The notes beneath the pieces were generated by a model, which was not told the DNA's origin, did no database searches, and worked only from the letters and a program-made list of their open reading frames with translations. Of a stretch of DNA of 64,000 nt, positions 30,430 through 45,539 are shown in pieces. A program made the translations under genes and the position numbers. Source of the DNA: Candidatus Eremiobacteraceae bacterium (GTDB lineage Bacteria; Vulcanimicrobiota; Vulcanimicrobiia; Eremiobacterales; Eremiobacteraceae); assembly GCA_035314825.1 (NCBI GenBank), contig DATFYX010000001.1, positions 62,001-126,000 of the forward strand, written 5' to 3'. How positions within the stretch are numbered: the stretch's first letter is position 1; every line of letters starts with the position of its first letter.

Positions 30430-30509
30430 CGGCCTCCGCCGTCCCGCACGTGGGAGCCGCCTTGCGAGGCGCCGCGAACGGCGGGGATACCGCGAGAGGA
30501 GGTCCAGTG

Positions 30510-31730
30510 ATGCCATACCTTCCAGGCATGGGTCGGCGCGAGTTCCTCATCGGGGGCGCGGCATTGGGCGGCACGCTGCTCGGTGCTCCCGCGCTCGCGC
30601 AAACGGTCACGCTTCCGTTTGCCAACGGCGCTCGGCCGGTGGCGACGTATCCGCAAAAGCGGCCGCTCATCGTCCTGACCACACGGCCGGTGCAGCTGGA
30701 GACGCCGTTCTCGATCTTCAACGAGAGCGAGTTCACGCCTAATGATGCGTTTTTCGTGCGCTGGCATCTCGCCGGCGTGCCGACCGACATAGACGTCAAC
30801 GCATTCCGCATCAACGTTCACGGTTTGGTGACGACGCCTCTGCAGCTCAGCGTCGCTGACCTGAAGGCCGGTTTTGATGCCGTCGAGATCGCCGCTGTGT
30901 GCGAATGTTCCGGCAACAGCCGCGGCTTCTTCAGCCCGCGCGTGGCCGGCGGCCAGTGGGCCAACGGCGCAATGGGCAACGCGCTATGGAAGGGCGTACG
31001 CCTCAAAGACATCCTCGCCAAGGCGGGCGTGCGCGACGGCGCAGTGCAAGTCCGCCTGAACGGCGCGGAGACGCCGGTGCTTCCCGCCACTCCGGACTTC
31101 GTCAAGGCGCTCGACATAGACGTGGCGATGGGCGATGACGTCATCGTCGCCTATTCCATGAACGGCGCAGACCTGCCGGTGCTCAACGGCTATCCGGTGC
31201 GTCTGGTCGTTCCAGGATATTTCGCGACGTACTGGACGAAAATGCTCAACGACATCGAAGTGCTCTCCGAGACGGATCAGAACTTTTGGATGAAGACGGC
31301 GTATCGCATTCCGGCGGATCCCTGCGGCTGCCAGCAACCGGGCGCGACGGTCAAGACGGTGCCGATCACTCGTCTCACGGTGCGCTCATTCATCACCAGC
31401 GTGGCTGACGGCGCGCGCGTCGCGCCCAGCGTCGCATTGACGGTCAAAGGTATCGCCTTCGACAGCGGATACGGCATTCAGAGCGTCTTGTTCTCGGCGG
31501 ATGGCGGCGGGCACTGGACGCCGGCAACCCTGGGCAAAGACTATGGCAAGTACGCTTTTCGGCCATGGCAGGCACGTTTCACCCCGCAAGCCGGCACGCA
31601 GTATGCGCTTGCATCCTTGGCGATGAACACCATCGGCGAGGCGCAACGTTTGGATAACCCGGTATGGAATCCCGGCGGCTATCTGCGCAACACGGTGGAG
31701 ACCGTCCGCGTGGAGGCGTCGGCATCATGA
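30510..31730 (+). CDS. Tat-exported sulfite oxidase-family molybdoenzyme (SorA-like)
   Basis: A 406-residue molybdopterin enzyme, probably oxidising sulfite to sulfate in the periplasm. A twin-arginine signal (MGRREFLIGGAALGG) is followed by the molybdopterin domain with the Mo-ligand cysteine C133 in CSGNSRGFF, and a C-terminal Mo-co dimerisation domain (TRLTVRSFITS to the end). AGAGGAGG precedes the ATG by about 7 bases. It overlaps a cytochrome c gene by 4 bases, the arrangement of sorAB sulfite dehydrogenases. Substrate is inferred from family and partner. Confidence 0.88.
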   Translation: MPYLPGMGRREFLIGGAALGGTLLGAPALAQTVTLPFANGARPVATYPQKRPLIVLTTRPVQLETPFSIFNESEFTPNDAFFVRWHLAGVPTDIDVNAFRINVHGLVTTPLQLSVADLKAGFDAVEIAAVCECSGNSRGFFSPRVAGGQWANGAMGNALWKGVRLKDILAKAGVRDGAVQVRLNGAETPVLPATPDFVKALDIDVAMGDDVIVAYSMNGADLPVLNGYPVRLVVPGYFATYWTKMLNDIEVLSETDQNFWMKTAYRIPADPCGCQQPGATVKTVPITRLTVRSFITSVADGARVAPSVALTVKGIAFDSGYGIQSVLFSADGGGHWTPATLGKDYGKYAFRPWQARFTPQAGTQYALASLAMNTIGEAQRLDNPVWNPGGYLRNTVETVRVEASAS

Positions 31731-32053
31731 AAAAGCTTACGGTTCTCTCGCTGGTGTTCGCAACCGGTTTGGCAGTCGTGGGCGTCGGCGTGACTCGTGC
31801 CGATTCGAACGGCTCCATCACATTGCCGCCGCCCGACATCACGTTCAACGACGGTCCGAATGTCGCGCTCGCGCAATCGAAGTGCTTGATCTGCCATTCC
31901 GCAGATTACGTCTACACGCAGCCACCGCTGACCAAAGCTCAGTGGACGGCCGAGGTGACGAAGATGCAAAAGGCATTCGGCGCCCCCATCGCTGATGCGG
32001 ACATCCCGTTGCTCGTCGACTATCTGATGTCGCAGAACGGCAAGCAGAGCTGA
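31727..32053 (+). CDS. Periplasmic monohaem cytochrome c (SorB-like)
   Basis: A 108-residue protein with a signal peptide (LSLVFATGLAVVGVGVTRA) and one haem site, CLICH (C53, C56, H57), plus a late methionine (DYLMSQNG) as a possible sixth ligand. The ATG overlaps the sulfite oxidase stop (ATGA). It most likely accepts electrons from that enzyme and passes them to the respiratory chain. Confidence 0.88.
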   Translation: MKKLTVLSLVFATGLAVVGVGVTRADSNGSITLPPPDITFNDGPNVALAQSKCLICHSADYVYTQPPLTKAQWTAEVTKMQKAFGAPIADADIPLLVDYLMSQNGKQS

Positions 32054-40504: not shown

Positions 40505-43500
40505 GTGCCACGGCCGAACCCGCGGCCTATGCTATCGCCCGAGCGCCCGTTCTCACGGGAGAGCGTGGAGAAAGCGCCTCGCATCCGCGGCGCGCAGGTC
40601 AAGCACTCGGTGTGCCCCTATTGCGCGGTCGGCTGCGCCCAGCTCGCCTACGTGAAGGACGGCGTCCTGCTCGACGTCGAGGGCGATCCGGACAGTCCGA
40701 TCAACCGCGGCACGCTCTGCCCCAAGGGCGCGGCGACGTACCAATACGCCGTCAACCCGTTGCGCACGACGACCGTGAAGTATCGTGCGCCCTATTCGGA
40801 CCATTGGGAGACCAAGCCGCTCGAGTGGGCGATGGAGCAGATCGCGCAGCGCATCAAGCAGACGCGCGACGAGACCTTCGTCGAGACGCTGCCCGACGGC
40901 ACGACGGTGAACGCGTGCTACGCGATCGAGTCGCTCGGCGGCGCGACGCTCGACAACGAAGAGAACTATCTCATCAAGAAGCTGTTGTGCGGCGGCCTGG
41001 GCATCATCCCGATCGAAAACCAGGCGAGGATATGACATAGCAGCACGGTGCCCGGTCTGGGCACCTCGTTCGGCCGGGGCGGCGCGACGACGTTCCCGCA
41101 AGACCTCGTCAACTCCGATGCCGTTCTCATCATGGGTTCGAACATGGCCGAAGCCCACCCGGTGGCGTTCGCGCGCGTGCTCGAGGCCAAAGAACGCGGC
41201 GCGAAGCTCATCCACGTCGATCCGCATTTCTCGCGCACCTCGGCCATGGCCGATCTCTATCTGCAGATCCGCGCGGGCTCGGATATAGCGTTCTTAGGAG
41301 GCATCATCCGCTGGCTGCTCGTCAACGAGCGCTACTTCCACGACTACGTCTACTATTACACCAACGCGCTGACCGTCATCGACGACAAGTTCGAGGACAG
41401 CGAGGCGCTCGACGGACTGTTCTCGGGCTACGACCCACAGACACGCAGTTACGACACCTCGTCGTGGCAATACAAGCGCGACAAGAAGGGCAATACCGTC
41501 ACCGATCCCGAGGCGAAGAAGCCGCGCACCGTGCTCAACCTGCTCAAGTACCACTTCGAGCGCTATACGCCCGAAGAGGTCGAGCGCATCTGCGGCGTCC
41601 CCAAGGACGGCTTCTTGCGCGTCTGCGAGATCCTCGCGGACAACTCCGGTCGCGAGCGCACCGCCGCGTTCTGCTATGCGCTCGGCTGGACGCAGCACAG
41701 CCACGGCGTGCAGAACATCCGCGCGGCGGCGATCGTGCAGCTGCTGCTGGGCAACATGGGCCGCCCGGGCGGCGGCATCATGGCGCTGCGCGGCCATGCG
41801 TCCATCCAGGGATCGACCGACGTGCCGACGCTGTACGATCTGCTCTCGGGCTACATGCCGCAGCCCAGCGCGCTGCTCGATCACGGCACGCTCGAGAAAT
41901 ACATCAAGGCGGCGTGGCGGCCGACCGGCTGGTGGGCGAATTTCCCGAAGTACATCGTGTCGTTCTTGAAGGCGTGGTACGGCGCCGCGGCGACCGTGGA
42001 GAACGACTATCGCTTCGACTGGGTCGCCAAGACCAACGGCGACCATTCGCATCTCGCCTCCACCTTCGCGATGGTCGAAGGCAAGATCAAGGGCATGCTG
42101 ATCATGGGGCAAAATCCGGCGTCCGGCTCGGCGCACGCGCGCCTGCAGCGCAGGGCTCTGTCGAATCTGGATTGGCTGGTCGTACGCGATCTCTACGAGA
42201 TCGAGTCGGCGGCGTTCTGGTATGCGGCGCCGGACGGCGAGGACCCGGCCGCGATCAAGACCGAGATATTCTTCGTCCCCGCTGCTTCGCACTTGGAAAA
42301 GGAAGGCTCGTTCACCAACACACAGCGGCTGGTGCAGTGGCGCGATAAAGCGATCGACCCGCCGGGCGAGGCGCGCAGCGACGCATGGTTCATCCATCAG
42401 CTCGCCAAGCGCCTCAAGAAGCTCTATGCGGGCAGCAAGCTCAAACGCGACGCGCCGATCCAAGCGCTGACCTGGGAGTACGATCGCGCGGAGCCCGAGC
42501 CGGGGTCGAAGGTGCTCGACGAGCCCGATCTGGACCGCGTCGTGCAAGAGATCAACGGCTGCGAGATCGCGACGGGCAAGCTGCTGGGCGGCTTCGCCGA
42601 GCTCAAAGACGACGGCACGACCGCGTGCGGCTCGTGGATCTACAGCGGCATCCATCCGGAGCCCGGGCGCAATAAAGCGGCGTCGCGCGACAATCGCGGC
42701 CGCGTGTTCCCGAACTGGGGCTGGTCCTGGCCGGCGAATCGACGCATCCTTTATAATAGGGCGTCTGCCGACCCGTCGGGACGCCCGTGGTCCGAGCGCA
42801 AGAAGTACATCTGGTGGGACGAGGAGCAAAAGAAGTGGACGGGCGAGGACGTGCCCGACTTCCCGGCCACCAAGGATCCGGAGACCCCCGCCAAGCCGGG
42901 CGCGGGCGGCATGGATGCATTGTCAGGCAGCGACCCGTTCATCATGATGCCGGACGGCCGTGGCTGGCTGTTCGTGCCCAAGGGGCTCAAAGATGGTCCA
43001 ATGCCGACGCACTACGAGCCCTATGAATCGCCGGTGCACAACGCGCTGTACGGACAGCAGTCAAATCCGACCGCCAAGACGTTCGCCAAGACGGGCGACA
43101 ACCCGATCGCGGCGCCCGAGGACCCCGACTATCCGGTCGTCATGACGACGTACCGCGTGACCGAGCATCATGTCACCGGGGCGATGACGCGCTGGCTGCC
43201 GTGGCTCGCGGAGCTGCAGCCCGAAGCGTTCGTCGAGCTGAGCCCACAGCTCGCGGCCGCGAAAGGGATCGTGAACGGCGGCTGGGTGACCGTCAGCACG
43301 CTGCGCGGGCAGTTCGAGGGCCGGGCGCTGGTCACACCGCGCATGCACCCGCTGCAGATCCAAGGCAAGCTGATCGACCAGATCGGAGTGCCGGTGCATT
43401 GGAGCTACATGGGGGTGACCAAGGGCGACACACCCAATGACCTCACCCATCTCGTGCTGGAGCCTAACGTGTCGATCTACGAGGTGAAGGCCATCACCTG

Positions 43501-43570
43501 TAACGTCCGCGCCGGCAGGCGCACCGGAGCGACGACCGCACCGGTCGCGCCAAAGACCGAATCCGCATGA
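40505..43570 (+). CDS. fdhA: Formate dehydrogenase catalytic subunit, selenoprotein
   Basis: Molybdopterin (bis-MGD) enzyme oxidising formate to CO2. It has 1021 residues when the in-frame UGA at 41033-41035 is read as selenocysteine (Sec177). An N-terminal [4Fe-4S] site (C37, C40, C44, C72) precedes the Mo site, where Sec177-His178 stand in the family-typical NQARI-U-HSSTV context. The length matches FdnG/FdoG. The GTG start has AGGGGG upstream. No twin-arginine signal is present, so the enzyme is predicted to face the cytoplasm. It overlaps the beta subunit by 4 bases. Reading the UGA as a stop would wrongly split the gene in two. Confidence 0.95.
41033..41065 (+). promoter_or_regulatory. 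Selenocysteine UGA and bacterial SECIS hairpin
   Basis: UGA (41033-41035) is followed after 11 bases by GGTGCCC (41047-41053), loop GGTCT (41054-41058) and the perfectly complementary GGGCACC (41059-41065). E. coli fdhF has the same 11-base distance from UGA and a GGUC apical loop, the SelB contact site. Here the stem is continuous, without the bulged U of fdhF. Confidence 0.92.
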
Positions 43571-44382
43571 GCTTTTTCCAAGCGTTCGAACGGGTCGAGC
43601 CGCCGCCTCAAGCGCGGCCGATGGGTTTTTTCACCGATTCGTCGGTGTGCATCGGCTGCAAGGCGTGCGAAGTCGCCTGCAAACAGTGGAACGAGCTGCC
43701 CGCGGACGGCCAGAAATTCACCGGCATGTCGTACGACAACACCGTCGCGCTCGGTGCGACGACGTGGCGCCATGTCCAATTCATCGAGCAGCAAGACGAG
43801 CGCGGCGCGATGCGCTGGCTGTTCAACAGCGACGTGTGCAAGCATTGCGTGGATGCGCCGTGCGAGAACGCGTGTCCGACCGGTTCGCTCATCCGCACCG
43901 AATTCGACACCGTGTACGTGCAGCAGGACATCTGCAACGGCTGCGGTTATTGCGTCGTCGCGTGCCCGTTCGGCGTCATCGAGACGGCGCACGCCGCGCC
44001 GAACACGGATGGCGCCGCGCATAAGTGCACGCTGTGCTACGACCGGCTCAAGGACGGTATGGAACCGGCGTGCGCCAAAGCCTGTCCGACGGACTCGATC
44101 CTCTTCGGCGAGGTCGATCAGCTGCGCGAGTACGCGGCGCGCCGCGTCGAGGTCCTGCAAGCGCGCGGCGAGAGCAAGGCCCAGCTGTACGGCATGCCCG
44201 CGCAAGACCACGCGCTCGGCGGCCTCAACTCGTTCTTCTTGCTGCTCGACGAACCGGAGAAGTACAATCTCCCGCGCTATCCGCGCTCGCCTAAGCGCGC
44301 CATGGCCAAGGGCTATCTGTGGGGCCTGGGCGCCGCGATCGTCGTAGCGGCGACCATGGCGCTCATGTTCGACTCGGACTGA
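43567..44382 (+). CDS. fdhB: Formate dehydrogenase iron-sulfur beta subunit
   Basis: Electron-transfer subunit of 271 residues with four [4Fe-4S] clusters from the cysteine groups CIGCKACEVACKQ, CKHCVDAPCENACP, CNGCGYCVVACPFG and CTLCYDRLKDGMEPACAKACP. A C-terminal hydrophobic helix (GYLWGLGAAIVVAATMALMF) would anchor it in the membrane, as in FdnH. The ATG overlaps the fdhA stop. It connects the catalytic subunit with the NrfD-like membrane protein. Confidence 0.95.
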   Translation: MSFFQAFERVEPPPQARPMGFFTDSSVCIGCKACEVACKQWNELPADGQKFTGMSYDNTVALGATTWRHVQFIEQQDERGAMRWLFNSDVCKHCVDAPCENACPTGSLIRTEFDTVYVQQDICNGCGYCVVACPFGVIETAHAAPNTDGAAHKCTLCYDRLKDGMEPACAKACPTDSILFGEVDQLREYAARRVEVLQARGESKAQLYGMPAQDHALGGLNSFFLLLDEPEKYNLPRYPRSPKRAMAKGYLWGLGAAIVVAATMALMFDSD

Positions 44383-44387
44383 CGCGC

Positions 44388-45284
44388 ATGGAGATGTCCA
44401 ACTATTACGACCAGCCCGTCCTCAAGCCGCCGGATTGGGGCTGGTCGGTCATCGGTTATCTGTGGGTCGGCGGCATCGGTGCGGGCGCTTTTGTGGCGTC
44501 GTCGCTCGCCGCGCTGCGCGGCCACAAGGACGACCGTGAGATCGCGAAGCTCGGCTACGCGGTCTCGACCATCGCGATGGGCATCAGCGCGCCCCTTCTG
44601 ATCAGCCATCTCGGCCGCCCCGAACGCTTCCATCATATGTTGCGGGTGTTCAAACCGACGTCGCCGATGAACGCCGGCGTGTGGGGCATGACGTCGCTCT
44701 CGGCTGCGGCGGCCGGTGCCGCCGCGGTCAATCTCGCTGGGGCTGGTGGTTTCGTGCGCACCGCCGCGGCGTTGCTGGGGCTTCCGTCTGCGCTGTTCGT
44801 CGGGTCCTACACGGGCGTGCTGCTGAGCCATTCGAGCATCCCCATGTGGGCCAAGTCGCCGTTTCTGCCGGCGCTGTTCGCGTCGTCATCGCTGGCCACC
44901 GGCGCTGCCGGCATCGCGCTGCTCGCCGAGCTGTTCGGCGTCGGCTCGGTGCGCGCGCGCAAGCGGCTTGCGAACGCCGAGCGCATGGCATCGTTGGCGG
45001 AAGCGATCGCGCTGGCGGTCTGGCTGTCCGATGTCGGCGAGTTCGCGAAACCGCTGCGCGAGCCGCCGCTCAAAGACATCTTCGAAAAAGGCGTGCAGGG
45101 AGCAGGCATCGCGGCGCCGCTGGCGTTGCCGAGCACGCGCACGTCGAGCCTGTGGGACGTGGTCAAGCCGATACTGGTGCTCGCCGGCGGACTGGCGCTG
45201 CGCTATGCGATGGTCGAAGGCGGGCGCAGATCCTCAAAGGACGCCGACGCCTACTTGAAGTTCACATCCGAGCCGCAGGATTAA
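44388..45284 (+). CDS. NrfD/PsrC-family membrane subunit of formate dehydrogenase
   Basis: A 298-residue membrane protein with about eight hydrophobic segments; it begins DWGWSVIGYLWVGGIGAGAFVAS, typical of NrfD-like quinone-reactive subunits. There are no haem-ligand histidine pairs like those of the FdnI cytochrome b type. It lies 5 bases after fdhB, and together they would pass electrons from formate to the quinone pool without haem b. The C-terminal 40 residues are polar. Confidence 0.9.
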   Translation: MEMSNYYDQPVLKPPDWGWSVIGYLWVGGIGAGAFVASSLAALRGHKDDREIAKLGYAVSTIAMGISAPLLISHLGRPERFHHMLRVFKPTSPMNAGVWGMTSLSAAAAGAAAVNLAGAGGFVRTAAALLGLPSALFVGSYTGVLLSHSSIPMWAKSPFLPALFASSSLATGAAGIALLAELFGVGSVRARKRLANAERMASLAEAIALAVWLSDVGEFAKPLREPPLKDIFEKGVQGAGIAAPLALPSTRTSSLWDVVKPILVLAGGLALRYAMVEGGRRSSKDADAYLKFTSEPQD

Positions 45285-45296
45285 GAAGACCCGGGC

Positions 45297-45539
45297 TTAC
45301 TTGTTGAAATAGTCCGCGTTGATCTTGGTGTATTCTTTCCACTGCTCGGGGACTTCGGTCTCGTTGTAGATCGCGGTCACCGGGCACGCCGCCACGCACG
45401 CGCCGCAGTCGATGCACGTGCTCGGATCGATGAACAGCATCTGATCCTCGTCCGTGCCCTTGATGCAGTCGACGGGACAGACGTCGATGCACGACTTGTC
45501 TTTGACTCCGATGCACGGTTGGCAGATCACGTAGGTCAC
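45297..45539 (-). CDS. fdxA: Seven-iron ferredoxin (FdxA type)
   Basis: An 80-residue ferredoxin. The first motif, CIGVKDKSCIDVCP, has Val where a second CxxC cysteine would be, giving a [3Fe-4S] site; the second, CIDCGACVAACP, binds [4Fe-4S]. The tail VPEQWKEYTKINADYF is characteristic of actinobacterial and related FdxA proteins. The GTG start is preceded by GGAGGA. It is convergent with the formate dehydrogenase operon and may act in general redox metabolism rather than in that complex. Confidence 0.93.
   Translation of the reverse strand: MTYVICQPCIGVKDKSCIDVCPVDCIKGTDEDQMLFIDPSTCIDCGACVAACPVTAIYNETEVPEQWKEYTKINADYFNK

Follow-up and report, generated by a model that had tools for sequence, protein, structure and literature searches.

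The window analysed here, a stretch of 64,000 nucleotides (G000:C1:62001-126000), belongs to a soil bacterium of the little studied phylum Eremiobacterota, the genome of which (G000) is a 2.55-Mb MAG of 97% completeness. A gene for the alpha subunit of a formate dehydrogenase (FDH) with an in-frame UGA lies in the window, together with a hairpin shortly downstream of this UGA and the genes for two further subunits (Table 1).

Table 1. Features of the FDH locus (positions in the window)
Feature	Position	Strand	Basis
fdhA-like gene, FDH alpha subunit, predicted to contain one Sec	40532..43570	+	NF041513, TIGR01553; PDB 1h0h, 6sdr, 1kqf
UGA predicted to be decoded as Sec, residue 168 from ATG 40532	41033..41035	+	in frame; conserved UGA; in register with Sec/Cys of solved FDHs
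Bacterial SECIS hairpin, 7-bp stem, loop GGUCU (41054-41058)	41047..41065	+	fold; covariation; loss in Cys orthologues
Ordinary UGA stop of the fdhA-like gene, overlapping the next start (ATGA)	43568..43570	+	sequence
HybA/FDH-beta-like Fe-S subunit, probable C-terminal membrane anchor	43567..44382	+	TIGR01582, Fer4_11, Fer4_7
NrfD/PsrC-like integral membrane quinone-side subunit	44388..45284	+	PF03916 100 bits, PF14589 55 bits

Direct reading of the frame gives 176 codons from a GTG at 40505 to the UGA at 41033 and a further 844 open codons from there to the terminal UGA, in agreement with the 176 and more than 840 codons of the first-pass annotation. The readthrough product would comprise 1,021 residues from GTG 40505 or 1,012 residues from ATG 40532; the ATG appears the likelier start because the similarity to the same-genus orthologues starts there, with the longer GTG start being possible. 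The alpha subunit passes the cut-offs of both NF041513 (1475 bits, cut-off 1400) and TIGR01553 (1049 bits, cut-off 814) and can be aligned end to end with the three PDB entries of Table 1 (E<=1e-229). The residues at the site read NQARI-U-HSSTVPGLGTSFGRGG. The UGA occupies the position of the Mo/W ligand and is followed by His (NQARI-U-H; aligned with 1h0h and 9qm0), and the active-site context first assigned to it is borne out by the alignment of the site with the Sec or Cys of the solved FDHs. No obvious Tat signal was seen in the alpha subunit.

With 87% identity across the FDH, 'Candidatus Eremiobacterota bacterium CP_BE_RX_3' (genome_contigs) is the nearest relative that bears a name. The same codon is UGA in the related genomes G001 and G002 (87% identity) and in more than 100 orthologues, and a UGA is present in all the Eremiobacterota FDH loci at which the site was read, down to 45% identity. 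The fdhA-like gene itself ends in a UGA that overlaps the next ATG, and UGA therefore also functions as an ordinary stop here; the conserved GU-loop hairpin at +11 is absent after this terminal UGA.

The product of the second gene of the operon matches TIGR01582 at 178 bits, under the cut-off of 335, and also Fer4_11 and Fer4_7; a hydrophobic segment was observed by eye at its C-terminus. Convergent with the FDH operon, a frame for an 80-residue two-cluster (YfhL-like) ferredoxin is found on the minus strand at 45297-45539 and represents a possible electron partner. A second molybdoenzyme system lies near the FDH at 30450-32053, where a SUOX-like molybdopterin sulfite oxidase is encoded ahead of a small protein that carries a CxxCH motif for haem binding, as judged by eye.

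The UGA is separated by 11 nt (41036-41046) from GGUGCCC-GGUCU-GGGCACC, which folds into a stem of seven Watson-Crick pairs, and the exact spacing, the 7-bp stem and the GGTCT loop reported at first are thus found at 41036-41065. Among the 1,420 TGAs of the window (both strands counted), the one at 41033 is alone in being followed at +11 by a stem of 7 Watson-Crick bp that closes a 5-nt loop. As a single hairpin, this is nevertheless modest evidence, because four of the seven pairs are dictated by the amino acids alone and 9% of the random encodings (same amino acids, codon usage of the gene) form a 7-pair stem, 0.4% with the loop GGUCU. It is the comparative data and not the lone hairpin that decide its identity as a SECIS. 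In the published model of bacterial SECIS elements, the apical loop has 3-9 nt, the upper stem 4-16 bp, G occurs at loop positions 1-2 (in most cases as GG or GU), the UGA is 16-37 nt from the apical loop, the MFE is at most -7.5 kcal/mol and no bulge is needed (PMC13188914). The corresponding values for the present hairpin are 5 nt, 7 bp, GGUCU (the GU being fixed in all 67 distinct sequences described below), 18 nt and ~-14.8 kcal/mol, all within the model.

For the comparative analysis, 135 UGA-containing FDH loci (a few of which are one genome represented twice) were collapsed into 67 different sequences of 33 nt each, which represent Eremiobacterota, Chloroflexota, Actinomycetota, Acidobacteriota, Myxococcota, Gemmatimonadota and Thermomicrobiota, among other taxa. 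None of them varies in the UGA, the 11-nt spacing or the loop GU, and all contain the stem when scored at the fixed 11-nt spacing. Two pairs that in most sequences join third codon positions are formed in 67/67 with none unpaired: pair 4-16 (Val and Gly codons; GC 32, CG 26, UA 8, UG 1) and pair 7-13 (Pro and Leu codons; CG 57, GC 7, UA 3). Shuffling gave means of 30 and 52 of 67, respectively, and none of the 20,000 shuffles reached 67. On a FastTree tree of 128 proteins, inferred with the SECIS-encoded residues masked, these pairs underwent at least 16 and at least 13 state changes, respectively, and the pairing was never broken. Across 44 rows the structure pairs 95.5% of the cells, as against 28-56% in slid registers, and RNAalifold recovers the identical stem unprompted. 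The first-pass annotation had named, as an outcome that would refute it, sister species with the UGA replaced by a sense codon and the hairpin lost; the sister species retain both. The 7-bp stem it described holds across the orthologues for the inner six pairs and less so for the outermost one, which is formed in only 46 of the 67 sequences. Loop bases 1 and 4 are G..C in 47 sequences, A..U in 15 and A..C in 5, and never G..U.

Natural controls are provided by the orthologues with Cys in place of Sec, which make up 8 of the 80 named ones, a ratio that is not to be taken as a frequency because the search of the named loci used a Cys-codon pattern. In these eight (from Arthrobacter, Sinomonas, Paenarthrobacter, Goodfellowiella, a Solirubrobacterales MAG, Lautropia and Chelatococcus) the stems are mostly broken and the loop U is replaced by C or G in seven; the Gly/Ser codon that is always GGU or AGU in the Sec genes is mostly GGC in the Cys genes, for the same amino acid. 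selA was detected in 16/16 tested genomes with a Sec-FDH versus 3/8 genomes with a Cys-FDH. One further genome (G025) has no selA, no selD, no selB over the cut-off and no FDH of the window's type. Another (G003), in which neither selA nor selB exceeds the cut-off, was left out as a negative in view of its Sec-type selD and fragmented assembly (370 contigs).

The first-pass annotation had also predicted SelA, SelB, SelC and SelD elsewhere in the genome, and a genome search recovered all four sel genes, which together define the Sec-decoding trait. SelA (G000:C66:21956-23287, 522 bits) and SelB (from G000:C66:23305 onward, 305 bits full length, cut-off 242) are encoded by adjacent genes (G000:C66:21956-24354 and beyond), with tRNA-Sec(UCA) on the same contig (28734-28823; 76 bits, cut-off 47; also called by ARAGORN) and SelD at G000:C1:187040-187966 (380 bits, cut-off 125). 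Two different Cys-type MsrA-like frames with a GCFWG motif lie between selB and the tRNA-Sec gene (L045 12239-14695 on G000:C66). Among PDB chains, the C-terminal half of this SelB, with its winged helices, is best matched by Moorella thermoacetica SelB (1lva, 2uwm and 1wsu; E 3e-14 to 4e-11), the match to E. coli SelB being weaker (E about 4e-5), and its last winged helix, RDAFGTSRRYALPLMEYFDGVGLTIRDGD, aligns with the Moorella counterpart.

With this reading frame, this gene set and a conserved, covarying hairpin that is lost where Cys replaces Sec, the gene almost certainly encodes a respiratory-type Mo/W-bis-MGD formate dehydrogenase in which the metal ligand is Sec, acquired by SECIS-guided readthrough of UGA. 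Sec insertion, SelB binding and enzyme activity are predictions for a MAG-derived gene and can be pictured as follows. SelD would provide selenophosphate and SelA would convert Ser-tRNA-Sec to Sec-tRNA-Sec, which would be carried by SelB-GTP. The C-terminal winged helices of SelB would bind the apical GU of the hairpin as the UGA enters the ribosomal A site, and the UGA at 41033 would be read as Sec and that at 43568 as stop. The electrons of formate would then pass through the Fe-S subunit and the NrfD-type membrane subunit to quinone.

FdhD is a sulfur-transfer (sulfuration) factor that metal-dependent formate dehydrogenases are believed to require. FdhD (PF02634) was not found in G000-G002 by profile search or by protein search within their own family, and is absent in 13 of the 14 genomes of that family, G000 included. 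A weak match at G000:C84 (E 0.04) was rejected, the frame being unlike FdhD; HemN/radical-SAM-like and PIN-TRAM-like frames lie on the opposite strand. None of the three FDHs of E. coli can do without FdhD, and FdhF is inactive in its absence (PMC6239281). The missing FdhD questions the catalytic activity and leaves Sec insertion untouched: Sec may be inserted into an enzyme that is inactive or is no formate dehydrogenase, which we consider rather improbable. FdhD is present in most genomes of the other large family (in G018 it directly follows nrfD; L208), and in most of those genomes of other families that carry the window's type of FDH. Arguments against an inactive enzyme are the intact gene, its place in an operon and a MobA-like protein in G000, which scores under the curated cut-off there as it does in all the relatives. 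A Sec-FDH is likewise found without detectable FdhD in the family members G006, G007 and G010 and in the single-contig complete chromosome G014, and since these share it, the combination appears to be stable. As a tentative possibility, the family may run active Sec-FDHs without FdhD, with another protein sulfurating the cofactor or with an enzyme that needs none.

A pseudogene or a sequencing error at the UGA, with translation stopping at 41033 and the remainder a remnant, is highly improbable. Either could produce one in-frame stop in a MAG, and a 7-pair stem alone is not improbable for this protein, but the reading was rejected since the UGA is conserved in both relatives and in the orthologues; in addition, the downstream hairpin covaries at synonymous positions, and the coding sequence past the UGA is free of decay and overlaps with the next gene. 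There is also very little likelihood that the hairpin simply follows from the conserved VPGLGT peptide and a GC-rich choice of codons, with SelB recruited by another signal. The amino-acid-fixed pairs and the share of synonymous encodings that form the stem would allow it, but the third positions of the Val-Gly and Pro-Leu codons covary across phyla, the GGU/AGU codon distinguishes the Sec from the Cys genes, and the same hairpin geometry recurs in FDH families with other peptides (VVSLAA, VAGLAA). A genome-wide reading of UGA as sense (Trp or Gly), as an in-frame UGA inside a conserved gene might suggest, was rejected as next to impossible, because the fdhA-like gene itself stops at UGA, neighbouring reading frames also end in UGA, tRNA-Sec(UCA) and SelA/B/D exist in the genome and the codon falls on the Sec/Cys ligand in the alignment with the solved FDHs.

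Other predicted targets of the Sec machinery were observed in the related genomes. Two more FDH families (RVUHGPTV... and CNRTUHAPSV...) carry the hairpin described above, again 11 nt after the UGA; the latter, a third FDH family with the pattern CNRTUHAPSV(A/V)GL (L189-L202) and likewise with UGA, 11-nt spacing and a GGUCU hairpin, is hosted by relatives that lack the window's FDH or have another FDH. In Sec-type SelD, the GU-loop hairpin is further from the UGA, its stem starting ~24 nt downstream. Both spacings are found within single genomes (L165-L182 versus L033, L034 and L049; e.g. G006, G018-G020, G028), and one SelB would therefore serve two spacings. The window's genus has a SelD of the Cys type (CAGCASK), and selD of G000 (L081, G000:C1:184000-190000) has a decayed hairpin where the relatives have Sec and an intact SECIS, which suggests that Sec gave way to Cys recently. 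With the R1 model, which is blind to the SelD-type spacing, G000 yielded no further UGA-linked SECIS of the FDH class; of two other R1 matches, both rejected, the better one lacks a UGA and the other is incomplete and close to the noise level. The FDH may thus be the only selenoprotein in G000, the scan having covered the FDH-class spacing.

Among known elements, the E. coli fdhF hairpin carries a bulged U, and that of Moorella thermoacetica fdhA has an unbulged stem and a pentaloop GGUCU in which the first and fourth bases pair. The counts at loop bases 1 and 4 fit the Moorella pairing; the Moorella SECIS differs in phylum, stem sequence and host. The E. coli element consists of the UGA, 11 nt and GGUUGCAGGUCUGCACC (5,383 E. 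coli genomes; the 17-mer also in PMC3834832), and the likeness first drawn to it, in spacing and GGUC loop core, is upheld by these genomes and extends to the place within the coding sequence. The E. coli stem is bulged with 3+3 pairs, whereas the Eremiobacterota hairpin has seven continuous pairs and a 5-nt loop. The absence of the bulged U, mentioned in the first-pass annotation, is real but not special, since no sequence among the 67 needs a bulge and the unbulged stem is the rule across the set. The SelB tolerant of such a stem that it predicted would be no special feature, and the idea that the stem points to an unusual SelB was dropped, this being the common form in the set and the published model requiring no bulge (PMC13188914).

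Among the enzymes, the alpha subunit aligns over its whole length, Sec position included, with the Sec-containing FdhA of Desulfovibrio (1h0h and 6sdr families) and with FdnG of E. coli (1kqf); the Eremiobacterota FDH differs in having no visible Tat signal and an NrfD-type membrane partner. Orthologues at 51-66% identity are found under NF041513 (formate_DH_Act, NCBIfam) in Actinomycetota, Chloroflexota, Acidobacteriota and Myxococcota, and most share the UGA and the hairpin. The enzyme is thus a classic Sec-FDH, its gene bearing a bacterial SECIS of the standard type, the mechanism being well known and the host new. The FDH of the window's genus clusters with Thermogemmatispora, a member of the Ktedonobacteria, and a Chloroflexi MAG (99% local support, FastTree), the other Eremiobacterota FDHs fall elsewhere in the tree, and this form is not in other genomes of the family. 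Lateral transfer of the FDH (40532-45284) into the genus is likely on the basis of this FastTree analysis.

No paper describing Sec use in Eremiobacterota was found in a full-text search of a partial literature collection. The locus adds a well-supported selenoprotein and the Sec-decoding trait to a mostly uncultured phylum, in which annotation of UGA only as a stop would split the fdhA-like gene in two. The natural variants define the target of SelB in this class of SECIS, with the GU fixed, the six inner pairs kept, the outermost pair dispensable and loop bases 1 and 4 changing together, and the missing FdhD offers a testable exception to the maturation rule.
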